Source: an uncultured Chromatiaceae bacterium
GTDB taxonomy: Bacteria > Pseudomonadota > Gammaproteobacteria > Chromatiales > Chromatiaceae
Length of the DNA stretch: 51,080 bases
Reading direction: 5' to 3'
Assembly (NCBI GenBank): GCA_937923175.1
Contig: CALALB010000074.1
Span: forward strand, 1-51,080
Shown in pieces: positions 28,836-43,415 of this stretch. The position numbers and the translations under genes are program-made. Positions within the stretch are counted from its first letter, which is position 1, and every line of letters starts with the position of its first letter. Under the pieces are notes generated by a model. It was not told where the DNA came from and ran no database searches. It saw nothing but the letters and a program-made list of their open reading frames with translations.

Positions 28836-29714
28836 TTGTTCGCCTCCCTATCTGGGATAACCGGTCAGTTCGGTCGTTCAGTCGCCTGGTTGTTCATCTG
28901 CTGTTTGGCAGCCTTGGGTATGACCGGTTGTTTGAGCACTGTCCGTCCCCCTGAAACCCAGATGGATCTCGAGACCCTGATCCTCGATGCCGCCTCCTGT
29001 CATTTGCTGCGCGTCGGCCAAACCAATGATGTCGCGTCCACGGATGTCACGGTTATCCTCGCCGCTGATCAATATCGGATCCCCATCCAAACCATCATCG
29101 AGCGCGCCAACCGTCTGATCAGGGATTATGAACACAAACCGGCTGAGCTGGTGGGGCAAGCGATCCGCGCCTGTGAGCTTTTGGGTGAGCTGACCAGGAC
29201 GACCCCGGCCTTGGTCCGTTTCGAACCGGATGGCCAGCTGCGCTTTGCCTGGTTAAGGGTCGATGGGGCTGAGATCACCCCTGGCTTTGCCCAGCGCATG
29301 ATCACTGAGCTACGTGAGCGCCGCGCTATCGGTTTGATCATCAATAGCCCAGGCGGGTCGGTCGATGAGGCGCGCAAGCTCGGACGCTATCTGCGCGCCA
29401 ATGGTTTGCGCACCGCGGTCGATGATTATTGCGTCTCAGCCTGTATCGATGTCTTGGCCGGGGGGGTCGAGCGCTATGCCACACCCAATGCCAGGCTTGG
29501 CGTTCATCAGAGCCGCGTTCCCCGCCGTTACAGCAGCCATGAGGGCGGTCAACTCTATGTCGCCGATGCCTTTTTATATCTACGCGAGATGGGGGTGGAT
29601 GCCGATGTCGCGATCGCCGCTGCCGCTGTCCCGAATGACCGGGTTCTCCTGATCCCGCTCTCCGAGGCCCTGGCTGCCGGTTTGATCACCGGGGTAATCG
29701 AGCATTCACTCTGA
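28836..29714 (+). CDS. Lipoprotein with ClpP/crotonase-like fold (COG3904-like)
   Basis: About 292 residues from a TTG at 28836. The N-terminus is a lipoprotein signal (GRSVAWLFICCLAALGMTGC, Cys about residue 31). The C-terminal half resembles periplasmic ClpP-like proteins: LIINSPGGSVDEARKLGRYL, then VDDYCVSACIDVLAGG with a serine in the nucleophile position between two Cys, then ARLGVHQS with the candidate His. The family is annotated only as predicted periplasmic protein, and the catalytic roles are inferred from the fold. Start choice is uncertain because the frame stays open back to 28491. It lies downstream of hisHF in the same direction, but the repeat region between suggests separate transcription. 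Confidence 0.7.
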   Translation: MFASLSGITGQFGRSVAWLFICCLAALGMTGCLSTVRPPETQMDLETLILDAASCHLLRVGQTNDVASTDVTVILAADQYRIPIQTIIERANRLIRDYEHKPAELVGQAIRACELLGELTRTTPALVRFEPDGQLRFAWLRVDGAEITPGFAQRMITELRERRAIGLIINSPGGSVDEARKLGRYLRANGLRTAVDDYCVSACIDVLAGGVERYATPNARLGVHQSRVPRRYSSHEGGQLYVADAFLYLREMGVDADVAIAAAAVPNDRVLLIPLSEALAAGLITGVIEHSL

Positions 29715-29781
29715 CTCGACCGCGGCGAGCGCTGTCTTGGTCTAGGTCCGGCGATGGATCATCCCTGTCATTAAATACTAA

Positions 29782-29803
29782 AGATTAAAATAATTTTTAA
29801 TCT
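29782..29803. promoter_or_regulatory. Perfect AT-rich palindrome upstream of the rnf operon
   Basis: A 9-bp perfect inverted repeat (AGATTAAAA / TTTTAATCT) with a 4-bp TAAT centre lies in a strikingly AT-rich island about 160-180 bp before rnfB. It is the only AT-rich stretch in the intergenic region and so marks the probable promoter or operator zone. A regulatory role is inferred. On the minus or plus strand alone it could also act as a weak terminator for the upstream lipoprotein gene. Confidence 0.45.
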
Positions 29804-29963: not shown

Positions 29964-30839
29964 ATGGAGATCATCGTCACTGCCACTGGCTTGATGACCG
30001 CCTTGGGCCTGATGCTTGGCCTGCTCCTGGCGGTGGCCAATCGACGGCTTTATGTGTTCGAGGACCCTCGGATCGATCAGGTCGAGGAGTTGTTGCCCCA
30101 TGCCAATTGCGGGGCCTGCGGCGAGGCTGGTTGTCGCCCCTTTGCCGAGAAGCTGGTCAAGGGCGAGATCGAGCCAGCGCGTTGTACGGTCAATGGTAGG
30201 TCGGGAAATCAGCGTATCGCTGAGTTTCTTGGGGTAGAACTCCAGACCCGCGAACCCTGGGTAGCGCGCCTGGCCTGTGCAGGTGGGGGCAATGTGGCTG
30301 CAGTACGCGCATTTTATCGCGGTCTCCCCTCCTGCCGCGCGGCTGCCTTGGTCTCGGGGGGAGGGCGCAGCTGCGCCTGGGGATGTCTTGGTTTTGGCGA
30401 TTGCGTGTCTGTATGCCGTTTCGGGGCGCTGTCTCTCAATCGCCAGGGGCTGCCGGTGGTGAGCGAGGAGCGCTGCACCGCCTGCGGCGATTGCCTCAGC
30501 ATCTGTCCCAAGGGTCTGTTCAGCCTGCATCCAGTCAGCCATCGGCTCTGGGTCGCCTGCAAGAATCTCGATCCGGGTGAGCAGGCCGAGCAGCAATGCG
30601 AGGTGGCCTGCACCGGCTGTGGGCGCTGCGCCCAAGATTCACCCGAGGGCCTGATCCAGATCCAGGACAATCTGGCGGTGATCGACTATGCCAAAAACGA
30701 TCTGGCCTCCAAGGTCGCTATCGAGCGCTGTCCGACCGGTGCCATCCTCTGGCTCGAGCCCGATGGGACAGTCGTTAAGGGTCTGAAGGCGCGCAGGGTA
30801 ATCCGCAAGGGCGCCAAGGTCGCTGAGCCGGCACTATAG
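29964..30839 (+). CDS. rnfB: Rnf complex iron-sulfur subunit RnfB
   Basis: A 291-residue ferredoxin-like subunit of the Rnf ion-translocating ferredoxin:NAD+ oxidoreductase. An N-terminal membrane helix (MTALGLMLGLLLAVANRRL) is followed by the 4Fe-4S domain HANCGACGEAGCRPFAEKL. Next is a Cys-rich block (LPSCRAAALVSGGGRSC, AWGCLGFGDCVSVCRFGAL) and further ferredoxin motifs (RCTACGDCLSICPKG; CTGCGRCAQDSPEG; RCPTGAI). It is the long multi-cluster RnfB type of anaerobes and Rhodobacter, not the short RsxB of E. coli. The ATG at 29964 gives a normal N-terminus; a GTG at 29928 has a better AGG-type ribosome site and may be the real start. It is the first gene of the Rnf cluster. Confidence 0.93.
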   Translation: MEIIVTATGLMTALGLMLGLLLAVANRRLYVFEDPRIDQVEELLPHANCGACGEAGCRPFAEKLVKGEIEPARCTVNGRSGNQRIAEFLGVELQTREPWVARLACAGGGNVAAVRAFYRGLPSCRAAALVSGGGRSCAWGCLGFGDCVSVCRFGALSLNRQGLPVVSEERCTACGDCLSICPKGLFSLHPVSHRLWVACKNLDPGEQAEQQCEVACTGCGRCAQDSPEGLIQIQDNLAVIDYAKNDLASKVAIERCPTGAILWLEPDGTVVKGLKARRVIRKGAKVAEPAL

Positions 30840-31019
30840 CGGTCAGTTGGCAGTGGTTGACGGAGAAGGCGGCCAATAGGCCTCGCCCCGGCTGATCGGC
30901 AAGATTAAACACCGGCAGAAACCTCAAGCCGGTGAAAACCGGGGTTGGCCAGCAGTAGGCAAAGAGACCCGGGTTTTAGGTGGGCGCTACACCCGAGCCC
31001 CCAGCAGTTGAGAAGATCC
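30840..31019. other. Intergenic gap rnfB-nifJ with a hairpin
   Basis: A 180-bp gap, the largest within the Rnf cluster. It contains a perfect 7-bp hairpin (CACCGGC / GCCGGTG, 11-nt loop) at 30910-30934 without a T-run. The hairpin could attenuate transcription or stabilise the RNA between the two genes. A second promoter for nifJ cannot be excluded. Confidence 0.4.
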
Positions 31020-34000
31020 ATGTTTGGAAGAAAAGACGATAGACAACCCAAATATCCTGGTATCCGGATGGCAGTGGACGGCAATACGGCGGTGATCCTG
31101 TGCGAGCGCGAGGCCTCGGATGCCGCCGGCGCCTATCCGATCACGCCCTCTACCCCCATGGGCGAGATCTGGGCCGAGGAGGTCGCCAAGGGACATCTCA
31201 ATATCTCAGGCCGACCCCTGATCTTTATCGAACCTGAATCCGAACATGCCGCTGCTGCGGTGACTGCAGGCATGGCGATGACTGGTCTGAGGGCGACCAA
31301 TTTCTCGTCGGCCCAGGGCGTGGCCTTTATGCACGAGTCGCTGTATGCCGCGGTCGGCAAGCGCCTGCCCTATGTGCTGAATATCGGGGCGCGCGCTATC
31401 ACCAAGGCTAGCCTCAATGTCCATTGTGCGCACGACGATTATCACTGCATCGATGATACCGGTTTCATCCAGGTCTTTGCCCGCAATGCCCAGGAGGCTG
31501 CGGATCTCAATCTGATCGCCCGCAAGCTCGCGGAGCTCAGCCTGACCCCGGCGGCGGTTGCCCAGGATGGATTCCTAACCACCCATTTGATCGAGCCGAT
31601 TCAGGCCCCGGAACGAGCCCTGATCGAGACCTTCTGCGGGCGTCCGGATGACCTCATCGAATGTCCTACCCCCGCCCAACGTCTCCTCTTTGGGCCAACC
31701 CGCCGGCGGGTGCCAGCACTGTGGGACGTCGATGACCCCTTGAGCTCGGGCACGGTGCAAAACCAAGACGCCTATATGCAGTCGGTTGCGGCCCAAAGGC
31801 CCTATTTCTTTGATCATATCCCCAGGCTTGCCGATCAGGTCATGGCCGAATATGAGGCGCTCACCGGGCGCCGCCATGCCCGGGTCTCTGGGTATCGCTG
31901 GGAGGATGCCGAATATCTGATCCTCGGTCAGGGCAGCATGACCGTTCAGGCCGAGGCAGTGGCCGATTATCTGCGCGAAAGCCGCAGGCTCAAGGTCGGG
32001 GTGCTCAATCTTACCATGTTTCGCCCCTTTCCGGGTGAACTCTTGGCCCGGATGATCCGGGGCAAACAGGGGGTGGCGGTGCTCGAGCGGGTCGATCAGC
32101 CCCTGGCCGAGGACCTGCCGATCCTGGTCGAGCTGCGCGCCGCGCTTACCAAATGTCTGGAAAACGGCATGGTCGGCAAACACGAACCCCTGCCTTATCC
32201 AGATTATCCAGCCTATAGATCAGGCGACATGCCCAGGCTCTATTCGGGCTGTTATGGTTTGGGCTCGCGCGATCTGCAACCTGAGGCTTTGATCGCTGCG
32301 GTCGAGAACATGCTGCCTGGGGGTGGACAGCGCCGGTTCTTTTATCTCTCGATCGATTTCGTGCGCGAGCCAGTCGATCCCCAGGATGAGATCCGTATCC
32401 AGGCGCTCAAGGATGCCTACCCCGAGATCGGGCGGCTCGCCCTGCGCGGCAGCGAAAACCCCAATCTACTGCCTCAGGATGCGATCACGGTGCGCATGCA
32501 CTCGGTCGGTGGTTGGGGAGCGGTGACCACCGGCAAGAACCTAGCGATGACCCTGTATGAGCTACTCGGCTGGCATATCCGGGCCAATCCCAAGTATGGC
32601 TCGGAGAAGAAGGGTCAGCCCACGACCTATTTTCTCGCCGCCGCCCCTGAGCCGATCCGTTTGAACTGCGAATATACCCAGGTCGATGTGGTCCTAAGCC
32701 CAGACCCCAATGTCTTCACCCATTCCAACCCCTTGGCGGGGCTTAAACCTGGCGGTTGTTTTATCATCCAGTCGAACCTAGACAGCCCGGAACAGGTCTG
32801 GGCCGGCTGTCCGCCCGCGGCCCGCCAATTCATCGTCGAGCACGGGATCCGGGTTTATTATCTGGATGGATTCAAGATCGCCCGGGAGGAGGCGACCAAC
32901 CCAGAGTTGCAATTCAGGATGCAGGGTGCGGCATTTCAGGGCGCCTTTTTTGCCGTATCCAATGTCATGGAACGCCTGGGGCTGACTGAGACGGGGCTTT
33001 TTGCCGCGATCGAGGAGCAATTGCGTGCCAAGTTCGGCGCCAAGGGGGAACGGGTGGTCCAGGACAATCTGCGGGTGGTACGCCGCGGGTTCGATGAACT
33101 GACCGAGATCACCGAGAAGCCCCTGGACTCGGACCAGCCCTTGCGGCGCAGGATGCCGCCCCTGCCGATCCTGTTAAAAACCCTGCCTGAAGGCAGCGGG
33201 AGGATCAGCGATGCCCATCGCTTTTGGGAGCAAACCGGCATCCTCTATGCCCGGGGCCGGGCCAATGACAATCTGGCCGACCCGCAGATGGCCTTATCTT
33301 TGCTGCCGGCGGCAACCGGCGTCTATCGCGACCTCACCCAGATCCGCTTTGAATATCCGCGCTTTATCCCCGAACGTTGCACCGCCTGCGGGAGTTGCGT
33401 GACGGTTTGCCCGGATAGCGCCATCCCTGGGCTGGTCAGCCGGATCAGCGAGATTCTGGCCACCGCGATCAACCGGGTCGAACACGGGATGCCGACCCGC
33501 TTTCTGCGGCGTGAGTCGCGTGCCCTGGAAAAACGCCTGCGTACCCTGATCGACTCTCAAGGGGAGGGTGCCGATGTGCGCACCCTTCTGGATCGGGCAA
33601 TCCTCGATACCCTGGCCGCCTTCGAGGGGGATGCGGCGGAGAAGTCATGCGCCGAGCGCGAGTTTGCCCTGATGCGCGCGGCGCTGGGCGATTATCCATT
33701 CGCCATCACCCGTCCCTATTGGACCAATCGCGAGAAGCAGCAGCTAGGCAGCGGTGGGCTATTCAGCGTCACGGTCAATCCATACACCTGCAAAGGCTGT
33801 ATGGAATGCGTCGAGGTCTGCAAGGACGGCGCCTTGGTCGCCGCGCAGCAGACCGATGAGGCCGTCGAGCATCTGCGCACCCGCTGGGCCCTGTGGCTAG
33901 AGCTGCCCAATACGGCCCCCGAGTTCATCCGTATCGAGTCGCTTGATGACAAGATCGGGGCGCTGGCAACCCTGCTCCTCGATAAGACCAATTATCTATC

Positions 34001-35960
34001 GATGGTCGGGGGCGATGGCGCCTGCATGGGCTGTGGGGAAAAGACCGCGGTGCATCTCTTCACCGCCACTGTCACCGCCCTGATGCAGCCGCGGGTTAAG
34101 CGGCATGTGGCTGAGCTCGAGGATCTCATCGCGCGCCTCGAGACTCAGGTGCGCCTGAAACTCGCCGCGGGCATGGATCTCTCGAATGCTGCAGCGATCC
34201 AGCGGGTGCTCGAGGCCCATCAAGAGACCGATCTGACCCTTGCCGAGCTCTCCTCCGAACTCATCGACCGAGCTGCAGATCCCGTGGATCCAGACTGGCT
34301 CAAATGGGTCACGGATCTATTGGCCAAGCTGCGCCGGTTGCGCGACCAATACACCGCCAAACGACCGCGGGCCGCCATGGGTTTCGTCAATGCCACCGGC
34401 TGCAGCTCGGTCTGGGGTGGGACCTTTCCCTACAACCCCTATCCCTTCCCTTGGTCGAACAATCTGTTTCAGGATTCGCCCTCGATAGCCCTGGGATTGT
34501 TCGAGGGGCATATGCGTAAGATGGCCGAGGGGTTTAAGGCGATTCGCCAGGCGCGGATGGAGCTTGCAGGCCGGTTCAACCTTGCAGATCCCGCCTGCCG
34601 GCTCGATCATTTCACCTGGCGCGATTTTAGCGAGGAGGAATGGCGCCTGTGCCCGCCGGTGGTGGCGGTCGGGGGCGATGGGGCCATGTATGACATCGGC
34701 TTCCAGAACCTCTCGCGTGCCCTGCTGGCTGGGTTGCCGATCAAGATCCTGGTGCTCGACACCCAGAGCTATTCGAATACCGGCGGTCAGTCCTGCACCT
34801 CGGGATTTTGGGGTCAGGTTGCCGATATGGCCCCCTATGGTCAGACCTGGAAGGGCAAAAAGGAGATCCGCAAGGAGATGGGTCTGATCGGCATGGCGCA
34901 TCGCTCGGCATTCGTGCTCTCCAGCGCTACCTCACACCTGAACCATCTGTTAGAGGGCCTGATCGATGGGCTCAATTCCAGGCGTCCGGCCTTGTTCAAT
35001 CTCTATACCCCCTGTCAGCCCGAACATGGGATCGGGGATGCCCTGTCCGACCGCCAGGCGCGCCTGGCGGTCGAGTCACGCGCTTATCCCTTATTCCGCT
35101 TTGACCCGGATGCAGGCACGAGCTTTGAGGAGTGCTGCTCGATCGACGGCAACCCTGTACCCGATGCCGACTGGGTGACCTGGACGCTCAACGCTGTCGA
35201 TGGACAGGGCAAGCCGGTGACCCTAGAGGTGCCCTTCACCTTTGCCGATTTCGCCATGACCGAGGGGCGCTTCCGCAAGCACTTTCGCAAGATCCCGGAG
35301 GACGCCTGGAACGACAGCCTCCTACCGCTCCATGAGTTCATCGACCTCCCTGAGGAGGGGCGTGCGGGCCTGCATCCCTATATCTGGGGGTTGGATCACA
35401 AAAACCGTCTCATGCGGGTGATGGTCGCCCCCGAACTGGTGCAAAGCTGCGAGGAACGCCGGGCCTTCTGGCGCCAGCTGAGAGGACTCTGTGGTCTGCT
35501 CGGCCGTGTCGATGTCGAGGCGATCCGCGCTCAGGCCAAGGTCGAGATCGCGCAGCGCCTGGCCAGCATCCTGCTCGCTCTCGCAGGGGAGGGAGGGATT
35601 CAGGTCGCCGGCAGCCTGTCTGAATCCTGGGCCGCTGAGACGGCAGCGCCTCCGACGGTAGGCCGAGACAATGGTTCGGGCGGCAATGGCGCCAGTCCAG
35701 CAGCAGCTGCCTGGGAGTCTGCCTGGGTCGAGACCCCGGCTTGTACCGCCTGCGACGAGTGCATCAGGATCAATCCCAGGATCTTTCGCTATAACGCCGC
35801 CAAAAGGGTCGAGATCGCCGACCCCAAGGGTGGACCCTATCGGGATATCGTCAAGGCCGCCGAGCAATGCCCAGCTGGCTGTATCCATCCGGGATTGCCC
35901 TGGAACCCAGGCGAGCAGGGGGTCGAGCAGCTGATCAAGCGCGCGGCCAAATATCAGTAG
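31020..35960 (+). CDS. nifJ: Pyruvate:ferredoxin (flavodoxin) oxidoreductase, extended NifJ type with C-terminal ferredoxin domain
   Basis: A 1646-residue enzyme, well beyond the roughly 1200 of ordinary NifJ. It decarboxylates pyruvate to acetyl-CoA and passes electrons to ferredoxin or flavodoxin. The pyruvate-binding domain holds GAYPITPSTPMGE (37-49). The CoA/gamma domain (SVGGWGAVTTGKN) is followed by two 4Fe-4S sites, C787-x2-C-x2-C-x3-C and C924-x2-C-x2-C-x3-C, about 130 residues apart. The TPP domain contains GDGACMGCGEKT (Cys1002, Cys1005), CSSVWGG (Cys1128) and GGDGAMYDIG. A charged, probably coiled-coil insert of about 95 residues separates Cys1005 from Cys1128. The extra C-terminal domain has C1575-x2-C-x2-C and CPAGC (1617-1621), a single-cluster ferredoxin. 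The ATG at 31020 has GAGAAG 6 nt upstream. The substrate could be another 2-oxoacid. Confidence 0.9.
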   Translation: MFGRKDDRQPKYPGIRMAVDGNTAVILCEREASDAAGAYPITPSTPMGEIWAEEVAKGHLNISGRPLIFIEPESEHAAAAVTAGMAMTGLRATNFSSAQGVAFMHESLYAAVGKRLPYVLNIGARAITKASLNVHCAHDDYHCIDDTGFIQVFARNAQEAADLNLIARKLAELSLTPAAVAQDGFLTTHLIEPIQAPERALIETFCGRPDDLIECPTPAQRLLFGPTRRRVPALWDVDDPLSSGTVQNQDAYMQSVAAQRPYFFDHIPRLADQVMAEYEALTGRRHARVSGYRWEDAEYLILGQGSMTVQAEAVADYLRESRRLKVGVLNLTMFRPFPGELLARMIRGKQGVAVLERVDQPLAEDLPILVELRAALTKCLENGMVGKHEPLPYPDYPAYRSGDMPRLYSGCYGLGSRDLQPEALIAAVENMLPGGGQRRFFYLSIDFVREPVDPQDEIRIQALKDAYPEIGRLALRGSENPNLLPQDAITVRMHSVGGWGAVTTGKNLAMTLYELLGWHIRANPKYGSEKKGQPTTYFLAAAPEPIRLNCEYTQVDVVLSPDPNVFTHSNPLAGLKPGGCFIIQSNLDSPEQVWAGCPPAARQFIVEHGIRVYYLDGFKIAREEATNPELQFRMQGAAFQGAFFAVSNVMERLGLTETGLFAAIEEQLRAKFGAKGERVVQDNLRVVRRGFDELTEITEKPLDSDQPLRRRMPPLPILLKTLPEGSGRISDAHRFWEQTGILYARGRANDNLADPQMALSLLPAATGVYRDLTQIRFEYPRFIPERCTACGSCVTVCPDSAIPGLVSRISEILATAINRVEHGMPTRFLRRESRALEKRLRTLIDSQGEGADVRTLLDRAILDTLAAFEGDAAEKSCAEREFALMRAALGDYPFAITRPYWTNREKQQLGSGGLFSVTVNPYTCKGCMECVEVCKDGALVAAQQTDEAVEHLRTRWALWLELPNTAPEFIRIESLDDKIGALATLLLDKTNYLSMVGGDGACMGCGEKTAVHLFTATVTALMQPRVKRHVAELEDLIARLETQVRLKLAAGMDLSNAAAIQRVLEAHQETDLTLAELSSELIDRAADPVDPDWLKWVTDLLAKLRRLRDQYTAKRPRAAMGFVNATGCSSVWGGTFPYNPYPFPWSNNLFQDSPSIALGLFEGHMRKMAEGFKAIRQARMELAGRFNLADPACRLDHFTWRDFSEEEWRLCPPVVAVGGDGAMYDIGFQNLSRALLAGLPIKILVLDTQSYSNTGGQSCTSGFWGQVADMAPYGQTWKGKKEIRKEMGLIGMAHRSAFVLSSATSHLNHLLEGLIDGLNSRRPALFNLYTPCQPEHGIGDALSDRQARLAVESRAYPLFRFDPDAGTSFEECCSIDGNPVPDADWVTWTLNAVDGQGKPVTLEVPFTFADFAMTEGRFRKHFRKIPEDAWNDSLLPLHEFIDLPEEGRAGLHPYIWGLDHKNRLMRVMVAPELVQSCEERRAFWRQLRGLCGLLGRVDVEAIRAQAKVEIAQRLASILLALAGEGGIQVAGSLSESWAAETAAPPTVGRDNGSGGNGASPAAAAWESAWVETPACTACDECIRINPRIFRYNAAKRVEIADPKGGPYRDIVKAAEQCPAGCIHPGLPWNPGEQGVEQLIKRAAKYQ

Positions 35961-36040
35961 GTCAGATGGGGTAGGTTGGGTCGCAGGGCCTCCCCTGAGC
36001 CCTGGGATAGATCTAGGGTCGCAGCAGGGTCCAGAGCATC

Positions 36041-37552
36041 ATGAAGCCATTATCCAGTATGCCAGGGTCGCCGGTTTTGAACTCCAGGACAACAGGCAAT
36101 GCCTGGGCTAGGCAGGGTTCGCATCTTCCGGATCTCGATGGATCATCCGCACGCGCTGGCCTCATCGCGCGTCTGGAGCTCGGATTCAGGCGCCTGCTGG
36201 GTTGGCATAAGACCTTTGCCCATGGCGTCTATCCGGTCGAACACAAGGAGCTGACGGCAGCCAAACCGATCCGCCGTCTGCCCTTTCCAGCCGAGTTGAT
36301 CATCCCTCTTCAGCAGCACAAGGGTGCGCCTTCCATCCCGATCGTCCAGGTTGGACAGGAGGTGATGCGCGGCGAGCTGATCGCGGTTGCTGATGGTTTT
36401 GGGTCAGTGCCGATCCATGCCCCGGCGACCGGGGTGATCCGCGCCATTGGTCTGGCCCCAACCGCCGAGGGTCCCAAGGCGCCAGCGATCTTTTTAAAGG
36501 TCTACCCTGCCGCAACCCAGGAGGTCCAGGCTGGTCCCGCACGCGACCCCGAACGGATGGGCCCGGAAGAGATCATCCAGGCGGTCCAGGAGTCAGGGCT
36601 GGTCGGCTTGGGCGGGGCGGCATTCCCCAGCCATGTCAAGCTTAGGCCCCAAACGGGACGCAGCCTCCATACCCTTTTGGTCAATGGCTGCGAGTGCGAG
36701 CCCTATCTGACCTGCGATCACCGGATCATGCTCGAGCAGACCGCGTCCCTAATCCGCGGGATTCGCCTCGCCCTGAAGGCAACGGGTGCAAAATGCGCCA
36801 TCATTGGGGTTGAGGACAACAAGCTCGATGCCATTATCCGGCTGCGCGCCCATCTGGGCCGCAAACCCGATCTGCCGATCAGGGTTTTGGCGGTCCAGGC
36901 CAAATATCCCCAAGGGGCCGAAAAGATGCTCATCAAGGCGTTGCTCGGTCTCGAGGTCCCAGAGGGCGGTATCCCAGCGGATCTCGGGATTGCGGTCTTT
37001 AATGTCGGTACCCTGGCCCAGATGGGCGAGCTGATTCCAAAGGCTCAGGGGCTGATCGAGCGGGTGATCACCCTAAGCGGGCCGGCGATCAAAAACCCAG
37101 GTAATTTCTTGGTCCCGCTCGGGACGCCAGTCAGGTTTCTGCTCGAACAGGCGGGACTGCAGGGTGAGCTCGGCGAGGTCATCCTGGGTGGGCCCATGAT
37201 GGGCATGGCGGTCGCCTCGCTCGATGTCCCTATCACCAAGGGGGTCTCTGGGGTCATCGCATTGCATCCAGAGGACCCGGCGCTGGCTGCCCGCCCGGTT
37301 TATCCCTGTATCCATTGCGGCGAATGCGTGCGCGCCTGCCCGGTCTTCCTCAATCCCTCACTGCTGGGTGAACTGGCCAGGGCGCGTCAATATCAGGCGA
37401 TGGCCGAGCACCATCATCTGGATCAGTGTTTTGAGTGCGGCTGCTGCGCCTTCGTCTGTCCATCTAACATCCCGCTGACCCAGTATTTCCGCATCGCCAA
37501 GTCGATCAATCGCGATGCCGAGCGCCGTCGGCAAGCCAAGAGGTCTCATTGA
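36041..37552 (+). CDS. rnfC: Rnf complex NADH/iron-sulfur subunit RnfC
   Basis: A 503-residue peripheral subunit that should bind NADH and FMN and pass electrons through iron-sulfur clusters. The N-terminal RnfC barrel-sandwich region is seen in LIIPLQQHKGAPSIPIVQVGQEVMRGE and PIHAPATGVIRAI. The nucleotide-binding region follows: GLVGLGGAAFPSHVKL, LLVNGCECEPYLTCDHRIM. The C-terminus has two ferredoxin motifs, CIHCGECVRACP and CFECGCCAFVCPSNIP. An SLBB-like segment lies between. The first about 50 residues (MKPLSSMPGSP to LDGSSARAGL) look unrelated to the family, so a start slightly downstream is possible. It sits between nifJ and rnfD. Confidence 0.93.
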   Translation: MKPLSSMPGSPVLNSRTTGNAWARQGSHLPDLDGSSARAGLIARLELGFRRLLGWHKTFAHGVYPVEHKELTAAKPIRRLPFPAELIIPLQQHKGAPSIPIVQVGQEVMRGELIAVADGFGSVPIHAPATGVIRAIGLAPTAEGPKAPAIFLKVYPAATQEVQAGPARDPERMGPEEIIQAVQESGLVGLGGAAFPSHVKLRPQTGRSLHTLLVNGCECEPYLTCDHRIMLEQTASLIRGIRLALKATGAKCAIIGVEDNKLDAIIRLRAHLGRKPDLPIRVLAVQAKYPQGAEKMLIKALLGLEVPEGGIPADLGIAVFNVGTLAQMGELIPKAQGLIERVITLSGPAIKNPGNFLVPLGTPVRFLLEQAGLQGELGEVILGGPMMGMAVASLDVPITKGVSGVIALHPEDPALAARPVYPCIHCGECVRACPVFLNPSLLGELARARQYQAMAEHHHLDQCFECGCCAFVCPSNIPLTQYFRIAKSINRDAERRRQAKRSH

Positions 37553-37557
37553 GGGGC

Positions 37558-38622
37558 ATGGCCAATCGAGGGATTGCAATCCGCACCTCCCCGCATCTTA
37601 AGCGGGTGCTCACCGTCGATCAGATCATGCGCGGGGTGATCCTGGCCCTGCTGCCGATCGCCGCCTGGTCGGTCTGGCAGTTCGGGCTCAGCGTCCTGCT
37701 GCTGCTTCTGACCACCACAGGTGTCGCTGCGCTGACCGAATGGGCCTTGGCCCGGGCTGCGGGTCAGGGCAATACCCTCCAGAATGGCTCGGTGATCATC
37801 ACCGGTCTGTTATTGGGTTTGACCCTGCCGCCTGGATTTCCGCTCTGGATGGCAGCAGTTGCAGCATGCATTGGGGTTGCCCTCGGTAAATGGCTATTTG
37901 GTGGCCTGGGCTATAACGTCATGAACCCTGCCCTGGTCGGGCGGGCCTTTGTCCAGGCGGCATTCCCCAAGGCGATCGCCACCTGGAGTCCGCCCTTTGC
38001 CCCGGGTCGTTTTACCGAGCCGATCCCCTCGACCCTCACCCCGCCGTTCATGCAGCCGATTCCAATCGCTGACTGGATCAAGGGCCTTGAGCTCGATGCT
38101 TGGACGGGGGCAACCCCCTTGGCAGTGCAGAGATTTCAACATCTCGAGACCCCAGTCTGGGATCTCTTTGCCGGTACGGTCGCAGGCTCAGCCGGTGAGA
38201 CCTCGGCGCTCTTGATCCTGATCTGCGGGCTATGGTTGGCCTGGCAGCGGATGCTCGATTGGCGCATCCCCGCAAGCGTCATGGCAGGGGCTGTCTTCAT
38301 TGCGCTGCCGTTCTGGCTGATCGATCCAGGCCTGTATCCCAGCCCCGCCTTTGTGCTCTGTTCAGGGGGGTTGATGCTGGGGGCCTGGTTCATGGCCAGC
38401 GACATGGTGGCCTCACCGGTGACCCCAGCAGGGGTGGTGATCTATGGGCTATTCATCGGGGTGCTGACAGTGCTCATCCGCCTGTTCGGCGGACTGGTCG
38501 AGGGGGTAATGTATGCCATCCTGATCGCCAATGCCCTCAGCCCCTGGGTCTCGGACTGGACCCAGCCGCGGGTCTATGGATCGAAGGGACGGGGGAGGGC
38601 TGATGGCCAGCCTAGCGACTGA
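37558..38622 (+). CDS. rnfD: Rnf complex membrane subunit RnfD
   Basis: A 354-residue integral membrane protein with about ten helices. It carries a covalently bound FMN: the flavinylation motif WTGATPLA places the acceptor Thr near residue 186. Conserved stretches are GNTLQNGSVIITGLLLGLTLPP, GGLGYNVMNPALVGRAFVQAAFP, FMASDMVASPVTPAG and the C-terminal GGLVEGVMYAILIANALSPWVSD. The ATG at 37558 follows the rnfC stop by a few nucleotides, while its 3' end overlaps rnfG by 20 bases. Attachment of the flavin would need an ApbE-type transferase, which is not in the window. Confidence 0.95.
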   Translation: MANRGIAIRTSPHLKRVLTVDQIMRGVILALLPIAAWSVWQFGLSVLLLLLTTTGVAALTEWALARAAGQGNTLQNGSVIITGLLLGLTLPPGFPLWMAAVAACIGVALGKWLFGGLGYNVMNPALVGRAFVQAAFPKAIATWSPPFAPGRFTEPIPSTLTPPFMQPIPIADWIKGLELDAWTGATPLAVQRFQHLETPVWDLFAGTVAGSAGETSALLILICGLWLAWQRMLDWRIPASVMAGAVFIALPFWLIDPGLYPSPAFVLCSGGLMLGAWFMASDMVASPVTPAGVVIYGLFIGVLTVLIRLFGGLVEGVMYAILIANALSPWVSDWTQPRVYGSKGRGRADGQPSD

Positions 38623-39376
38623 GTCCCATCCAGAGGTTGGCACCTCGTCGAGGATGGAAGGAGCGGTTGGCGAGCTCCATCGAGCGATTCCCCAGGCGGA
38701 TCGATCAGCGCCAAAACCGCCGGGCTATGCTGTATCCCCCCTGAGATTGCTGCTGGCACTCGGCGGGGTGGCGCTCTTTGCCGGACTTGCAGTGTCCCTG
38801 GTCGATCAGCTCACCGCCCCGATCATCGCCGAGCAATATCGCCTGCGCACCGAACAGGCGGTGTTTGGGGTCTTGCCAGGGGCAACCCAGCTTCGCGCCC
38901 TGCACCTGAGTGCCAATGGCATCGCGGAGGGTGCGCCGAGCGTCAAGGGCGAGATGCCACTCTATGCGGCCTATGACCCGGCCGGGAAACTATTAGGGAT
39001 CGCGATCATCGGGTCTGGGGCAGGCTATGCCGGGCCAGTTCAGGCAATGTTTGCCTATCGCCCCGATTGCCGCTGTATCACCGCCAGCAAGGTCCTGCGC
39101 TCCAATGAGACCCCGGGTTTTGGGGATAGGCTCGGCGTTGATCCCGAGTTTCTGGAAAACTTCAGGGCGCTCGATGCGCGTCTCAATGCCGAGGGTACCG
39201 GCCTTGCCCATCCGATCGTCGCCGTTCGCCATGGTACCAAGACCGAGCCCTGGCAGATCGATGCCCTCGCTGGAGCGACCATCTCCTCGCGCGCCCTGGC
39301 CCGCGCTGCCGATAGCGCGGCCAACCGCGCTATCCCCTGGATTGAGCGCAATATCGATCGCCTGAACTCCCCCTGA
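38603..39376 (+). CDS. rnfG: Rnf complex flavoprotein subunit RnfG
   Basis: A 257-residue protein with one N-terminal membrane helix (LRLLLALGGVALFAGLAVSLV) and a periplasmic FMN-binding domain. The covalent FMN site is LAGATISSRA, with acceptor Thr near residue 226. Other RnfG features are GYAGPVQAMFAY, SNETPGFGDRLGVDPEFLENF and the terminal WIERNID. The ATG at 38603 has a GGGAGGG ribosome site and overlaps rnfD. The stretch before the helix (about 50 residues) is longer and more hydrophilic than in most RnfG. Confidence 0.94.
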   Translation: MASLATESHPEVGTSSRMEGAVGELHRAIPQADRSAPKPPGYAVSPLRLLLALGGVALFAGLAVSLVDQLTAPIIAEQYRLRTEQAVFGVLPGATQLRALHLSANGIAEGAPSVKGEMPLYAAYDPAGKLLGIAIIGSGAGYAGPVQAMFAYRPDCRCITASKVLRSNETPGFGDRLGVDPEFLENFRALDARLNAEGTGLAHPIVAVRHGTKTEPWQIDALAGATISSRALARAADSAANRAIPWIERNIDRLNSP

Positions 39377-39389
39377 GGAGAACCGAATC

Positions 39390-40052
39390 ATGTCAGAGCT
39401 GCTCAATACCCCGGAACGCCTGACCCCGGATACCTTTTTGCGCGGGCTTTGGCAGGAGAATCCGGTCTTTACCATGCTGCTTGGGATGTGTCCGGTGCTC
39501 GCGGTGACCGGCACGACCCTCAATGCCCTTGCCATGGGGCTTGCGACCACCTTCGTCCTGGTTGGCTCGAGCCTCTTGGTCTCCCTGCTGCGTCATTGGA
39601 TCCCCAAACAGGTGCGGATCGCCAGCTATATCGTCATCATCGCGACCTTTGTCACCCTGGTCGATTATGCGATCCAGGCGATCAGCCTGGAGCTTTATGC
39701 GGCGCTTGGGGCCTTCATCCAGCTCATCGTGGTCAACTGCGTGATCCTGGGCCGTGCCGAGGCCTATGCCTCCAAGCAGCGTCTGCATACCACCTTCGTC
39801 AATAGCCTGGGGATGGGTCTGGGATTCAGCCTGGCCCTGCTGGCCCTGGGGACGGTGCGCGAGATCCTGGGCCAGGGGACCCTGCTTGGGGTACCGGTCC
39901 TACCCGAAGGCTTTCAGCCCTGGGTGATCATGGCCTTGCCGCCAGGTGGGTTCTTTGTCCTGGGCAGCTGGCTGCTGGTGTTCAACTGGCTAGGCCCGCG
40001 CCGGGCACGCCGGGATCTCGTTGCAAGCGGAGCCACCATCCATGTCCGCTGA
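39390..40052 (+). CDS. rnfE: Rnf complex membrane subunit RnfE
   Basis: A 220-residue membrane protein with about six helices, homologous to NqrD. The conserved half-motifs GMCPVLAVTGTTLNALAMGL and VVNCVILGRAEAYASKQ each carry a Cys. In Rnf and NQR these, with the matching pair in RnfA, hold an iron centre inside the membrane. The start ATG at 39390 lies 13 nt after rnfG, with GAGGAG just upstream. Its 3' end overlaps rnfA by 11 bases. Confidence 0.96.
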   Translation: MSELLNTPERLTPDTFLRGLWQENPVFTMLLGMCPVLAVTGTTLNALAMGLATTFVLVGSSLLVSLLRHWIPKQVRIASYIVIIATFVTLVDYAIQAISLELYAALGAFIQLIVVNCVILGRAEAYASKQRLHTTFVNSLGMGLGFSLALLALGTVREILGQGTLLGVPVLPEGFQPWVIMALPPGGFFVLGSWLLVFNWLGPRRARRDLVASGATIHVR

Positions 40053-40632
40053 GCCCTTGACCCTGATCTTCTTGCAGGCGGCGATCGTCAATAACTTTGT
40101 GCTCGCCATGTTCCTGGGGATCTGTCCATTCCTCGGGGTCTCGGCAAAGAAGAGGATGGCCTGGAACATGGGTCTGGCGACCCTATTCGTGATGTTGGTG
40201 GGCTCGCTTTCGGCCTATGGGATCAATTGGCTGCTCACTGCACTCGGACTCGAGTTCTTGCGCCTGATCTGCTACATCGCCGTGATCGCCTCGGCGGTCC
40301 AGCTCGTGGAGATGTTCATCAAAAAAACCAGCCCTGGCCTATTTAGATCGCTGGGGATCTTCTTGCCGCTGATCACCACCAATTGCGCCATTCTGGGCGT
40401 TGCCTTGTTTCAGACCGCTCGGGAATACGACCTGATCCAAAGCCTGGTCTATGCAGGAGGGGCAGGGGTCGGCTTTATGCTTGCCCTGCTCCTGATGGCG
40501 GGTCTGCGCGAGCGTCTGGCCTTGGCGCGTCTGCCCGAGGTCAGCCAGGGGGCAGCCCTGACCCTGATGTTGGCTGGGCTTTTGTCGCTGGCCTTTATGG
40601 GATTTGCCGGCCTAGGGAGCAGTCATGGCTGA
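40042..40632 (+). CDS. rnfA: Rnf complex membrane subunit RnfA
   Basis: A 196-residue membrane protein with about six helices, homologous to NqrE and normal in length. It has the inverted-topology partner motifs FVLAMFLGICPFLGVS and LPLITTNCAILGVALF with the two Cys expected to share an iron centre with RnfE. The ATG at 40042 lies inside the end of rnfE, and the stop overlaps the start of the small Cys-rich gene, so all three are probably translated together. Confidence 0.96.
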   Translation: MSAEPLTLIFLQAAIVNNFVLAMFLGICPFLGVSAKKRMAWNMGLATLFVMLVGSLSAYGINWLLTALGLEFLRLICYIAVIASAVQLVEMFIKKTSPGLFRSLGIFLPLITTNCAILGVALFQTAREYDLIQSLVYAGGAGVGFMLALLLMAGLRERLALARLPEVSQGAALTLMLAGLLSLAFMGFAGLGSSHG

Positions 40633-40858
40633 GATCCTGCTCGCACCTGCGCTTGTCTTGGCAGTGCTCGGCTGCTGGGTTGGGGTCGAGCATCTCTATG
40701 CGCGCTTCCAGGCGCGTTATCCCCAGCTGGGTCCCTATCGCGATCTCGCAGGCGGCTGTCACTGTTGCCAGCACTTTTCTGGCGGTGGCTGCGCTCGGGC
40801 GGAATCGAGTACGCAGTTGCCCACCCGCCAGTCTTGGGATCTCAGTAAAACCCTTTGA
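40625..40858 (+). CDS. Small Cys-rich membrane peptide in the Rnf operon, candidate maturation factor
   Basis: A 77-residue protein whose ATG lies 8 bases inside the end of rnfA, a clear coupling signal. Residues 4-24 (ILLAPALVLAVLGCWVGVEHL) form one membrane helix. Then come a short basic stretch and a tight cluster LAGGCHCCQHFSGGGCA with Cys at 45, 47, 48 and 56 plus His at 46 and 50, a likely metal or Fe-S binding site. I do not recognise a named family. The layout (single helix then Cys cluster) is reminiscent of NqrM, which matures the iron centre of Na+-NQR, but the spacing differs. A role in loading iron onto RnfA/RnfE is an inference from position and layout. Confidence 0.7.
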   Translation: MAEILLAPALVLAVLGCWVGVEHLYARFQARYPQLGPYRDLAGGCHCCQHFSGGGCARAESSTQLPTRQSWDLSKTL

Positions 40859-40900
40859 CAGATCCAGGGGTGCCTCTGCGCACCCATGAGGAGCAAACGG

Positions 40901-41761
40901 ATGGCTGAAGCAATCAGATATCTCGGCCCGACTGCACCCGCGGTCGTCAAGGCAACCCAACGCATCACCCCCCAGACCACTGACGAGGTCCGTCATATCA
41001 CCCTGGAGGTCTTGGACCCGGCATTCCAGTTTGTCGAAGGTCAAACCCTGGGTGTTCTGGTCCCGGGCCCGCATCCCTTTGGCAATGCTCTGCATATCCG
41101 CCGTTATTCGATCGCCAACGCCCGTCATGTTCCGGTCGGCAACGGCGTGCATGTCGATATCCTGGTGAGGCGCTGTTTTTATCTCGATGAGCTGAGCGGC
41201 GAGCGTTATCCTGGGATTGCCTCCAATTATCTTTGTGATGCCAAGGTTGGCGATCGGATCACCATCAGCGGACCTTATCCCAGCCCGTTTCGCATGCCCT
41301 TGGATAATCGCGCCAACCTGCTCATGATCGGCACTGGTACCGGCATTGCGCCGTTCCGCGCCTTCGTGCAATTGATTTATGAGCGGCGCGGTGACTGGAA
41401 AGGTCAGGTGCGCCTGTTTTATGGCGGGCACAGCGGCTTGGATCTCATGTATGCCAATGATGAAAAGACCGATCTAGCGCATTACTACGATCAAAAGACC
41501 TTCCAGGCCTTCCGTGCCCTGGGGACCCGCCCATTCATGAGCTCATCCCAGGCGCTTGAACTGGGGCTTGCAGAACATGCGGTCGAGGCCTGGCGGTTGA
41601 TGCAAGAGCCGAATACCTATGTCTTTCTGTCTGGCCTGAGCAAGGTGATCCCGGCCTTCGAGCGGGTGATGAGCAAGCAAGCAGGCTCTGCGGATGACTG
41701 GAAACAGCTCAAACAGCGCATGATCGAACAGGGGCGCTGGTCCGAGATGATCTATGACTAG
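40901..41761 (+). CDS. Ferredoxin-NADP(+) reductase, plant-type
   Basis: A 286-residue flavoprotein of the FNR superfamily. The FAD-binding motif is RRYSIAN at about 67-73, with a preceding ferredoxin-binding-like domain. The NAD(P)-binding motif is IGTGTGIAPFRAF (about 147-159), and a C-terminal segment FLSGLSKVIPAFE matches plant-type FNR. It should exchange electrons between ferredoxin or flavodoxin and NADPH in the cytoplasm. The ATG at 40901 has GAGGAG 7 nt upstream and is preferred over an ATG at 40886. It follows the Cys-rich peptide by about 40 bp in the same direction and probably ends the Rnf transcript. Confidence 0.9.
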   Translation: MAEAIRYLGPTAPAVVKATQRITPQTTDEVRHITLEVLDPAFQFVEGQTLGVLVPGPHPFGNALHIRRYSIANARHVPVGNGVHVDILVRRCFYLDELSGERYPGIASNYLCDAKVGDRITISGPYPSPFRMPLDNRANLLMIGTGTGIAPFRAFVQLIYERRGDWKGQVRLFYGGHSGLDLMYANDEKTDLAHYYDQKTFQAFRALGTRPFMSSSQALELGLAEHAVEAWRLMQEPNTYVFLSGLSKVIPAFERVMSKQAGSADDWKQLKQRMIEQGRWSEMIYD

Positions 41762-41852: not shown

Positions 41853-43415
41853 TCAAGGGCTTAAGGATTCGCGTCGCCACCAATCGCCGCTGCTCGTCCG
41901 CTCCTGGGGGGTTGTGAATCGATAGCGCCAGGCCCTCACCCGCACGAAGCGCACCGGCTGGCCCTCTAAGGGGGGATGCGCAAGTAGGCGGATCACTGCA
42001 TCCGATCCCTCTTGGAGTCGCCCAAGCAACCGATCGAATGGCTCCAGAAAGCCGGGATGCTGGGGTACAAACCAAATCAGCCAATCTAGACGGGGCTGAT
42101 GGGGGATGATCAGCCGAGGTGCCTGCTCGGGCCGATCTGGTCGATAGCGAAAGTCGAGCTCCTCCCAGGACTGCCCATCAGTGCTGACCTCGATCTCGAG
42201 CTCGATGCGCATCTGGGTGACCTGCGCAAAGACATGATAGCGGTTGGCGATATGGAACCGATCGATCCAGGCCGTCCAGCTGCTGAGCGGTTCGAGCGGA
42301 CGCCGCAGGATCAACTCGGCAGCATTGATCAGGCTCAAGGGGACCAGGATCAGGGCAGCGGCCAGGGTCAGGGCAGGCAGGCGATGGCCGGGATATCTCG
42401 GGTGAGGGACGAAGCTTTGAACAGCGCCGCGCAACCAGCCGAGGTCCCGATCCGCTAACAGAAACAGACACAGGGCGATGGTGAGCAGATTGAAAAAATT
42501 ATGATTGCTGGTGGCCATGATCAGGATCTGCCAGAGGATGGTGATCCAGGCAGCGGCAAGCCGCCAGGGACGCGGCATCAGGATGAAAAGCGGCAGGATC
42601 AGCTCGACCGCTAGGGTCCCCAGGGTTCCCAAACGCAAGAGCCCATCGGGGAGCTGATGGGCATACCAGGCCCCCACATGGGGGAGGGGCTGGGTTTCGA
42701 GATAATGGCGAACCGCGGTCAGATCGCGCCAACTGGGGTCGCCTGAGAGCAGCTTGGCCAGTCCGGACTCAAAGCGCAGCCGAAAGAGCAGCCAGCGGAA
42801 GAGCCAGACGATCAGCGGCGTGCCGGCGATGCCCAGGGAGGCACCGGCGGAAAGCCTGGCCCCTGGCAGAAACAGGGCCAAAAATCCGGCCTCCAGCAGC
42901 AGAAAGTCCCACTGAAAGTTAGTAAACACCTGGCCAGCCTGGACTAGGCTGAGATAACCGAGATAGAGCAGGCCCAGAAGGACCCGCTCGCCCCAGGGTC
43001 CAGAGCCCCTGATCCAAGACAGGAGGCGACCAATTGACCGAGTTGGCGGCCGCTGGCTGGGTCTCGCGCTGATCCAAGGCCAGACTGTCAGTAATAGACC
43101 GAGCACTGCTCCACCCCAGGCGACGGCAAGTAGGGCCCAGTCGCCCGCGGCCAACCAAAACCATGACGGATAGGCAAGCCAGCGCCAGGGGCCGTAGCGC
43201 TCGGTCGCCCAAGAGAGCTGTTCGGCGAGCGGATAGATCCCCTGGCTACCTGCCAGGCCCAGGATCTGGACCGCAAGCGAGGTGAAGGCAGCGGCATAGA
43301 TCAGGCCAAGCAGACGCAAAAAGGACCAGGCGATGAGTCGATAGCCGTCCTGGGATCTGGACTCCATCCTGCTGGCAGGCAAGGCTGGGTGATCCATCGT
43401 GCCTGATTCCGACAT
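41853..43415 (-). CDS. Lipase maturation factor (LMF1)-like membrane protein
   Basis: A 520-residue membrane protein with many helices. Family features are QWDFLLLEAGFLALFLPG, WLFRWLLFRLRFESGLAKLLSGDPSWRDLTAVRHYLETQPLP and the middle helices LAVELILPLFILMP and NHNFFNLLTIALCLFLLAD. The C-terminal soluble region (DFRYRPDRPEQAP; PHQPRLDWLIWF; VRVRAWRYRFT) is also typical. In animals LMF1 folds secreted lipases in the ER; bacterial homologues are membrane proteins of unknown function. It is convergent with the Rnf cluster and upstream neighbours give no clue to a substrate. Start could be a later ATG (43397 or 43367). Confidence 0.85.
   Translation of the reverse strand: MSESGTMDHPALPASRMESRSQDGYRLIAWSFLRLLGLIYAAAFTSLAVQILGLAGSQGIYPLAEQLSWATERYGPWRWLAYPSWFWLAAGDWALLAVAWGGAVLGLLLTVWPWISARPSQRPPTRSIGRLLSWIRGSGPWGERVLLGLLYLGYLSLVQAGQVFTNFQWDFLLLEAGFLALFLPGARLSAGASLGIAGTPLIVWLFRWLLFRLRFESGLAKLLSGDPSWRDLTAVRHYLETQPLPHVGAWYAHQLPDGLLRLGTLGTLAVELILPLFILMPRPWRLAAAWITILWQILIMATSNHNFFNLLTIALCLFLLADRDLGWLRGAVQSFVPHPRYPGHRLPALTLAAALILVPLSLINAAELILRRPLEPLSSWTAWIDRFHIANRYHVFAQVTQMRIELEIEVSTDGQSWEELDFRYRPDRPEQAPRLIIPHQPRLDWLIWFVPQHPGFLEPFDRLLGRLQEGSDAVIRLLAHPPLEGQPVRFVRVRAWRYRFTTPQERTSSGDWWRRESLSP

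Follow-up and report, generated by a model that had tools for sequence, protein, structure and literature searches.

The window, meaning the whole stretch of 51,080 nucleotides analysed, carries nine consecutive genes on the + strand: rnfB, a giant 2-oxoacid oxidoreductase gene, rnfC, rnfD, rnfG, rnfE, rnfA, a gene for a small Cys-rich protein and an FNR-like gene. This is the order and the single strand given in a preliminary description, which placed a nifJ gene where the oxidoreductase lies; the coordinates likewise confirm that no gap exceeds 180 bp (30840-31019, rnfB to the giant), and that the rnfD/rnfG, rnfE/rnfA and rnfA/Cys-rich peptide junctions overlap. RnfB (29964-30839, 291 aa) is of the long polyferredoxin type, with an FeS domain and extra Fer4 motifs (TIGR01944, 98 bits, cut-off 69). 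The giant, a 2-oxoacid:acceptor oxidoreductase of the type called here op1, is 1646 aa long (31020-35960). RnfC (36041-37552, 503 aa) has a Nuo51-like FMN-binding domain, the NADH side, together with SLBB and Fer4 domains (TIGR01945, 479 bits, cut-off 246). Next come rnfD (37549-38622, 357 aa; start TTG at 37549, ATG at 37558), rnfG (38603-39376, 257 aa, FMN-binding domain), rnfE (39390-40052, 220 aa), rnfA (40042-40632, 196 aa), the Cys-rich protein gene (40625-40858, 77 aa, hydrophobic N-terminus) and the gene of the FNR-like flavoprotein (40886-41761, 291 aa), which belongs to the plant/cyanobacterial fold family. All six subunits of a BCDGEA-type Rnf complex are thus present with their domains. 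TIGR01944, 01945, 01946, 01948 and 01943 are matched above cut-off, and RnfG, scored as the 281 aa frame starting at 38531, stays below TIGR01947 (76 bits, cut-off 102) and passes Pfam FMN_bind (51, cut-off 22). Beyond the FNR-like gene, the long ORF that follows next (41853-43415) lies on the - strand. A promoter-like site found upstream of rnfB (29765-29794) is no evidence of a promoter, because the sites scored are no commoner than in shuffled sequences (3 in total against 3.5).

The nifJ label had to be abandoned. The 1646 aa protein reaches 378.2 bits with the TIGR02176 model, whose cut-off is 911.35, and the EKR domain, which in NifJ separates the gamma and Fer4 domains, is absent from it at E 0.1, while the NifJ of the same genome scores 82.5 bits for this domain. 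These figures rule out that the giant is NifJ; the true NifJ, 1198 aa long (TIGR02176, 1748.5 bits), is encoded elsewhere in the genome. Judged by its sequence, the giant is an uncharacterised 2-oxoacid oxidoreductase, far larger than NifJ and equipped with a ferredoxin tail of its own. It belongs to the POR superfamily, as POR_N (residues 33-262, 163 bits, cut-off 27), PFOR_II (297-377, 43 bits, cut-off 27) and the POR/gamma domain (497-692, 106 bits, cut-off 27.4) all exceed the Pfam cut-offs. The order of domains (POR_N, PFOR_II, gamma, two Fer4 clusters, TPP domain) is shared with NifJ, and so are the catalytic and cluster residues. In the window giant the catalytic residues are intact, among them the TPP site (GDG 1219-1221, SNTGG 1252-1256), as are the sixteen Cys of cluster A (C787, 790, 793, 797), cluster B (C924, 927, 930, 934), the proximal cluster (C1002, 1005, 1128, 1332) and the ferredoxin tail (C1575, 1578, 1581, 1617). 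Conservation is nearly complete in the 82 op1 giants compared: E75, R125, GDG, SNTGG and each of the 12 Cys that form the proximal cluster and clusters A and B are kept in all 82, T42 in 81, and the tail Cys in 81-82.

What sets the giant apart from NifJ, besides the missing EKR domain, is its size (1646 aa versus 1167 model positions), two longer stretches and approximately 200 additional residues past the last proximal Cys. The first of these stretches separates cluster A from cluster B (residues 798-923, 33411-33788, + strand); it is partly helical in the structure model and about 80 aa longer than in NifJ; its median length is 126 aa in op1 giants, 123 in op2 giants, the other Rnf-linked type, 127 in a third, 'mid' type, and 46 in NifJ. 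The second, between proximal Cys 2 and 3 (residues ~1006-1127, 34035-34400, + strand), contains a long predicted helix (H560-605 of the model), and is longest in the two Rnf-linked types (alignment-based medians 126 in op1, 125 in op2, 85 in 'mid', 24 in NifJ). The extra C-terminal region holds a single-[4Fe-4S] ferredoxin domain (35715-35957, + strand; Fer4_13), preceded by a linker predicted to be disordered. In the model the pLDDT is below 50 along the linker and mostly 70-90 in the ferredoxin domain, which weakly matches Desulfovibrio africanus ferredoxin I (E 0.14). The model as a whole is of moderate quality (pLDDT 68, pTM 0.57), and was used for secondary structure and disorder only; PFOR is the structure in the PDB that it matches best (E 8e-24), but a TM of 0.41 and a high rmsd make the arrangement of domains untrustworthy. 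In a tree built by a quick method four groups separate, and the giant falls in a group apart from NifJ; the tree was flagged for long branches and unequal composition, and only the separation of the four groups is used here. The 'mid' giants, of the same superfamily, adjoin an NfnAB-like fusion and lack Rnf neighbours, so the giant fold is not restricted to Rnf.

A giant POR gene between rnfB and rnfC distinguishes the locus from plain BCDGEA operons, and had been regarded as a departure from the usual order. For this type of Rnf that reading is ruled out. Among the best 80 of 590 confirmed stretches, whose record titles span several phyla, the giant is preceded by rnfB in 71/71 named loci with room for it (1.2 kb), followed by rnfC in 64/64, and flanked by both in 62/62. 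The upstream rnfB copies of these 71 loci are all 56-77% identical to that of the window, and the remaining genes follow downstream in the same set (rnfD 62/62, rnfG 60/60, rnfE 57/57, rnfA 57/57). The order is fixed, the opposite of the random order among relatives that the preliminary description had named as its refutation. Giant and RnfB also occur together: in 398 genomes sampled from the phylum, the three carrying this RnfB type, the window genome included, are the three carrying an op1 giant. Among 55 relatives, 23 genomes have an op1-type RnfB, undivided in 21 and in two pieces in 2, and in every one of them op1 giant sequence adjoins it on the same contig; the sister-type RnfB described below is adjoined by its own giant in 7 of 8 genomes. 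A 2-oxoacid:ferredoxin oxidoreductase is therefore genetically locked to the Rnf operon, which makes a ferredoxin/NAD(H) link between the two very likely. Of the earlier proposal, that one operon balances ferredoxin, NADH and NADPH, this part is supported; the NifJ identity is rejected, and the NADPH branch and the feeding of nitrogenase gain no support.

One such arrangement has been reported. In the Solemya velum symbiont PFOR genes were noted in 2014 between rnfB2 and rnfC2, and pyruvate was suggested as electron donor (PMC4287430); the accessible text of that account does not mention the size of the enzyme, its ferredoxin tail, its distance from NifJ, or the sister operon. The locus is among those compared here (L102): the giant is 66% identical to that of the window over 1522 residues, and the ferredoxin tail lies in another reading frame. 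Within a literature search covering listings and passages, with few subscription papers among them, neither a giant POR fused to a ferredoxin in rnf operons nor an inactive giant next to korAB is described.

The sister operon occurs in relatives, and has the order korA-korB-p840-rnfB-giant-(sucCD)-rnfCDGEA. The first five genes are in this order in 21 of the 27 loci fetched, with rnfC onwards next in 18; sucC and sucD follow the giant in 8. It resembles known KorAB 2-oxoglutarate:ferredoxin oxidoreductase systems in the nearby sucCD and in KorA, which in the one locus scored exceeds the TIGR03710 cut-off (489.2 bits, cut-off 482.75), while KorB remains below that of TIGR02177 (229.6 bits, cut-off 261.9); it differs from them in being accompanied by p840, rnfB and a giant which appears inactive. 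The KorA motif MYPITPAT is found in 23/27 loci and the KorB motif GDGDCFS in 24/27; in the other loci the gene is incomplete or was not detected. In the sister giants, E75 (the thiamine-site Glu), N1253 (Asn) and C1002 (the first proximal-cluster Cys) are lost in 22/22. Decay is uneven, R125 being kept in 13/22 and the GDG Asp in 5/22, and the eight Cys of clusters A and B, all present in 22/22, are the only invariant Cys. The p840 protein looks like another inactive remnant, bearing the ferredoxin tail in this operon: the four ferredoxin Cys are present in 27/27 and none of the other twelve cluster Cys is, and an Asn at the N1253 column (22/27) stands in a different context. An 869 aa frame matched as giant in one locus (L176) is a cross-match to p840. 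The inactive giant has a median identity of 43.5% (20 of the 22 sister giants, query and a near copy left out), compared with 61-84% for its Rnf partners (14-25 loci each). In 4 of the 22 giant loci no rnfC-A lies within the fetched stretch; in one of them the contig stops after another 4 kb, and two of the four genomes have rnfD some 12.6 kb further on in the same direction. Similarly, p840 lacks an adjoining rnfB in 5/27 loci, one at a contig edge and four (G595, G596, G597, G610) with the sister giant elsewhere in the genome, so that parts of the operon can be unlinked. The sister operon was not found in the window genome, where the p840 search matches the window giant only, nor was a second giant or a second RnfB of either type.

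A giant drifting beside a conserved Rnf, its active site lost and its eight relay Cys kept, fits the expectation for a docking scaffold and electron relay, and suggests that giants of this kind are wired to the pump. The reading which we favour, and hold to be fairly probable, is that the window operon combines a BCDGEA-type Rnf pump with a dedicated giant, probably a pyruvate-specific POR, whose tethered ferredoxin would deliver electrons directly to RnfB. According to this view, pyruvate would be oxidised at the thiamine site, electrons would pass through the proximal cluster and then clusters A and B, and the swinging C-terminal ferredoxin would take them up and hand them to RnfB; NAD+ would be reduced by RnfC, and ions moved by the membrane subunits. 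The giant would dock physically on Rnf, as a dedicated and probably physical conduit for electrons from 2-oxoacid oxidation to the pump. Pyruvate is the presumed substrate because the residues that we take to contact pyruvate and TPP in D. africanus PFOR (T31, E64, R114, N996) correspond to T42, E75, R125 and N1253 of the giant. As to direction, we favour energy-conserving oxidation of pyruvate under dark or oxygen-free conditions; under illumination, a large ion gradient could push the reaction backwards, towards carboxylation of acetyl-CoA.

A reductive role, where the ion gradient drives Rnf to pass electrons from NADH to the giant's ferredoxin, and the giant is a pyruvate synthase for acetate/CO2 assimilation, would be compatible with docking and differs in direction. 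Many hosts belong by record title to sulfur-oxidising groups, which we take to include autotrophs, and korAB and sucCD of the sister operon could run either way. In tubeworm symbionts, according to the accessible text of two reports, Rnf has been tied to the reductive TCA cycle (PMC6315080, PMC11636981). Yet the same operon is carried by records labelled Rhodocyclaceae, Thiothrix and a Methylobacillus bin, and synthesis could be served by the second POR of the genome, the true NifJ; we regard this role as somewhat unlikely.

Conserved gene order alone could also reflect co-regulation. The giant would then be a soluble POR reducing the ordinary ferredoxin pool, Rnf would reoxidise the pool, and the operon would be shared for a common metabolism. 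Cooperation between NifJ and Rnf is usually pictured in this way, and with its catalytic residues in place the giant would not need docking. Such a scheme, however, does not explain why the giant has a constant position between rnfB and rnfC, why it carries a ferredoxin tail of its own, or why it co-occurs with this RnfB type, and offers no reason for an inactive giant to persist beside RnfB, its relay clusters intact, when KorAB does the chemistry. We consider it unlikely. Equally improbable, and again compatible with docking, is a 2-oxoacid other than pyruvate as substrate: the score far below the pyruvate:ferredoxin oxidoreductase equivalog cut-off and the presence of a real NifJ in the genome speak for it, and the matching pyruvate contacts against it.

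Taking both operons together, the direct-delivery reading can be extended, tentatively and with slightly less than even confidence, to a class of Rnf supercomplexes that has so far gone unrecognised, with a giant derived from POR as a structural wire into the pump, bypassing free ferredoxin. In the window branch the wire would also be the pyruvate enzyme; in the other, a dead two-cluster conduit would lead from KorAB, acting on 2-oxoglutarate, to Rnf, with p840 carrying the ferredoxin and an inactive second half. Both would be ion-pumping replacements, for pyruvate and for 2-oxoglutarate dehydrogenase. In the usual picture, Rnf receives its electrons from a pool of diffusible ferredoxin. If the donor were instead dedicated and tethered, the oxidation of 2-oxoacids would in itself pump ions, and there would be a reason for the second Rnf kept by many sulfur oxidisers, purple sulfur bacteria and symbionts. 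The inactive sister giant is plausibly a natural knockout separating catalysis from electron relay, and thereby renders the docking idea directly testable. Behind a label such as nifJ or PFOR, these genomes can have any of at least three different proteins, namely NifJ, the catalytic giant or the inactive one, and this bears on claims about carbon-fixation pathways.

The genes following rnfA, a further difference from plain BCDGEA operons, are found in part of the relatives. The FNR-like gene is an optional passenger, present in 20/51 loci among the best 80 of 590. Its product scores 143.6 bits against a cut-off of 600 (NF045929) and 144.6 against 635 (NF058510) with PetH-type models, whose more than 400 positions put a 291 aa protein at a disadvantage. 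Plant-type FNRs bind the 2'-phosphate of NADP through the residues S-R...K-x-Y; the FNR-like proteins have Thr-Arg at the S-R site and lack K-x-Y. As only the Arg is mostly kept, the NADPH branch is unproven. The Cys-rich protein is conserved in 42/56 loci among the best 80 of 590, and in 47/82 in a separate count. It matches nothing above cut-off in Pfam, hence no known family; that it is NqrM-like survives as a guess, as does a role as maturation factor. No nifD above cut-off was found in the window genome, the single weak match being ChlB/BchB-like, and the supposed feeding of nitrogenase gains no support, although in a genome 91% complete this absence is not proof. A second rnfD lies elsewhere in the window genome, which therefore has a second rnf locus.

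ORF, Pfam and NCBIfam analyses confirm the single plus-strand run described at 29964-41761, made of rnfB, an oxidoreductase gene, rnfC, rnfD, rnfG, rnfE, rnfA, a gene for a Cys-rich protein and an FNR-like gene, and the ORF coordinates agree with the largest gap of 180 bp and the three gene overlaps claimed in the preliminary description. The strand switches downstream, where the next long ORF is on the opposite strand. The naming of the oxidoreductase as NifJ had to be abandoned. The protein (31020-35960, plus strand; 1646 aa, counted from the ATG at 31020), called here the window giant, scores 378 bits versus a cut-off of 911 for the NifJ model, and lacks the EKR domain; a genuine NifJ (1198 aa, 1748 bits, EKR domain present) is encoded by contig C34 of the same genome (2.5 Mb, 96 contigs, 91% complete), in which the window makes up contig C74. 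The solved structures closest to the giant are PFORs (pyruvate:ferredoxin oxidoreductases). When the lengths of 22 window-type giants and 8 NifJ proteins were compared, the median spacing was 126 residues versus 46 between the relay clusters A and B (about 80 more), and 126 versus 24 between the second and third Cys of the proximal cluster (about 100 more); 304 residues versus 108 (about 200 more) lie beyond the last proximal Cys. The C-terminal end is a single-cluster ferredoxin domain (Fer4_13, Pfam), preceded by a linker disordered in the AlphaFold model.

The TPP motif, R125, E75, and all twelve Cys of the proximal and the two relay clusters are present in 82/82 window-type giants (80 named loci plus L198 and L199), T42 in 81, and the four tail Cys in 81 or 82. 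As to the exceptions in the tail, the match stops at the contig end at locus L074, and in the Solemya velum gill symbiont (L102) the ferredoxin tail is in a different reading frame, which a frameshift, splitting of the gene or an error in sequencing could explain. T42, E75 and R125 align with T31, E64 and R114 of the Desulfovibrio africanus PFOR; N1253 presumably corresponds to N996 of the same enzyme, the match being made through the SNTGG motif. Given the conservation of the TPP motif, of the cluster Cys and of T42, E75 and R125, the window giant should be an active 2-oxoacid oxidoreductase, and its predicted substrate is most likely pyruvate.

The scan of one genome per species yielded at least 590 confirmed stretches from 594 pattern matches. 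The best 80 were kept, which are the nearest relatives of the window giant and no random sample, and neighbours were counted only at loci with room on the contig. Among these best 80 of at least 590, rnfB is directly upstream of the giant in 71/71 loci and rnfC downstream in 64/64; rnfD (62/62), rnfG (60/60), rnfE and rnfA (57/57 each) are further members of the operon. Labels of the carriers in this set include Chromatiaceae, Sedimenticola, Thiothrix, Ectothiorhodospira, Rhodocyclaceae and Gallionellales, as well as metagenome bins of Acidobacteria, Bryobacteraceae, Opitutaceae and Kiritimatiellae, though bin labels can be wrong. The position of the oxidoreductase, regarded at first as unusual, is shared by all 62 relatives of this set with room on both sides, and is not new as a gene order, since PFOR genes located between rnfB2 and rnfC2, with pyruvate suggested as donor, had been reported in the Solemya velum symbiont (PMC4287430, excerpt). 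In excerpts of other papers, Rnf of tubeworm symbionts is placed within carbon-fixation gene clusters, and korAB elsewhere, adjoining TCA genes (PMC6315080); in Endoriftia, when sulfide is limiting, korAB declines along with a "PFOR-like" gene (PMC11636981); Rnf is mentioned, with no link to a giant, in Thiomargarita (PMC4914600, PMC4853749) and Gallionellaceae (PMC10734462). The link of giants to Rnf is not described in the excerpts of PMC12174285, PMC10609205 and PMC6194059.

Window-type RnfB (E value 1e-20 or better) was found in 3 of 398 genomes drawn from the phylum, the window genome included, and the window-type giant in the same 3. Eight more genomes, all of one genus, carry a related giant without window-type RnfB, and one additional match is a weak fragment. 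By our reading of the matches in 55 relatives, 23 genomes have window-type RnfB (unbroken in 21 and in two pieces in 2), in every one adjoining window-type giant sequence. Eight have a second, sister type of RnfB, which adjoins a sister giant in seven, the eighth match being partial. An RnfB-like protein (34-36% identity) at L200:7078-7971, a locus of a relative, has no adjoining giant, and the wider RnfB branch can therefore stand alone.

The sister giant (about 1500-1580 aa), retrieved by searching relatives with the window protein, is 30-32% identical to the window giant. It resides in an operon ordered korA, korB, p840 (encoding 830-900 aa), rnfB, giant, rnfC, D, G, E, A. The korA-korB-p840-rnfB-giant order occurs in 21/27 fetched loci, 18 of which run on into rnfC onwards (two cut by stretch or contig end), and in the other 3 sucC and sucD come next, with no rnfC within the stretch. 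At one locus p840, rnfB and the giant lie at the contig start with no rnfC behind, and in 5/27 p840 has no adjoining rnfB, once at a contig edge. In the two genera concerned by the split arrangement a sister-type giant was found in 7/7 genomes. KorA exceeds the TIGR03710 cut-off at the one locus scored; KorA carries MYPITPAT in 23/27 loci, and KorB GDGDCFS in 24/27. The genes for succinyl-CoA synthetase, sucC and sucD (Pfam), follow the sister giant in 8/27 loci, and their location beside korAB makes 2-oxoglutarate/succinyl-CoA the likely reaction of KorAB. The sister operon was not found in the 91% complete window genome, where a p840 query matches only the window giant. In one relative a 675 aa protein with no Pfam match is encoded between korB and p840 (L176:1378-3405).

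All 22 sister giants analyzed have lost the TPP-activating E75, N1253, the first proximal Cys (now Glu) and the tail ferredoxin, and 21 or all 22 also lack each of the remaining proximal Cys. R125 persists in 13/22 and the Asp of GDG in 5/22. Relay clusters A and B keep their full set of eight Cys in 22/22, and these eight are the sole invariant Cys among 162 invariant columns. None of the four inactive giants put through Pfam has a TPP_enzyme_C or gamma domain above the cut-off; one of them has a TPP_enzyme_C score of 16.2 versus a cut-off of 21.9. Judged by these residues, the sister giant is a catalytically dead protein with a retained relay wire. p840 aligns at about 30% identity with the giant's C-terminal part; in 27/27 neither the GDG Asp nor any of the twelve proximal and relay Cys is present, the four tail-ferredoxin Cys are kept in 27/27, and Asn occupies the N1253 column in 22/27, with the SNTGG motif absent. 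The sister giant is the least conserved member of its operon (median 43.5% identity to the query locus, 20 loci; p840 52%, KorAB 67-70.5%, Rnf 61-84%); the active window-type giant equals its Rnf partners in conservation (64% versus 42-71%). In a tree obtained by a quick method, and carrying a long-branch warning, window, sister and Rnf-free "mid" types and NifJ form four single groups (100 each), window and sister types join at 97, and a long stem leads to the sister type.

Dead chemistry, two kept relay clusters, adjacency to rnfB, a detached ferredoxin and an independent KorAB are best explained if the sister giant is a scaffold through which KorAB passes electrons on to RnfB. Parsimony suggests that the window giant would play the same role for its own active site, electrons plausibly moving from the proximal cluster to A and B, then to the tethered ferredoxin and RnfB. 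The insert around residues 1006-1127 spans 126 residues in the window type, 125 in the sister, 85 in the Rnf-free "mid" type and 24 in NifJ; being longest in both Rnf-linked types, it is a candidate for the arm that would dock. That the proteins dock physically is inferred, as are the substrate and the direction.

"Mid" giants (about 1680-1720 aa; that of L138 is cut by the contig) speak against a fold reserved for Rnf. In four loci (L137:2722-10796, L138:76-6582, L196:3747-11687 and L197:5574-13516) the giant is directly followed by a gene for an NfnAB-like fusion protein of about 960 aa, with no Rnf. The L137 neighbour, the only one scored, belongs to family NF009415, and the four neighbours share 69-70% identity with it. 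Catalytic residues are intact in 3/3 "mid" giants checked, and giant and fusion protein are candidates for a 2-oxoacid:NAD(P) pair of the bifurcating or transhydrogenase kind. In view of this association, a hard-wired partner may be the general rule for giants of the superfamily.

The FNR-like protein (291 aa) belongs to the plant-type FNR fold family, below the cut-offs of the PetH models; of the 2'-phosphate motif for NADP binding, only the Arg is mostly kept in 26 family members. Among the best 80 of at least 590 stretches, 51 loci have room for FNR, which is present in 20 of them and missing from 31. The window strain may have an NADPH branch, which would lie outside the core system. The small Cys-rich protein after rnfA (40625-40858, plus strand, 77 aa) is encoded in 42/56 loci with room in the same set, and in 47/82 overall. 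Its N-terminus is hydrophobic, it contains several Cys and a conserved P-x-x-G stretch, and it matches no family. NqrM is a maturation factor, and by analogy the small protein might serve the maturation of the RnfA/E cluster. Upstream of rnfB, a 407 aa ORF (28491-29714) has a weak Clp-protease-like match as its sole Pfam hit (21 bits). Further upstream, a 542 aa ORF (26691-28319) combines HisH-like glutaminase and HisF-like domains (Pfam GATase and His_biosynth), and resembles an imidazole glycerol phosphate synthase in fused form.
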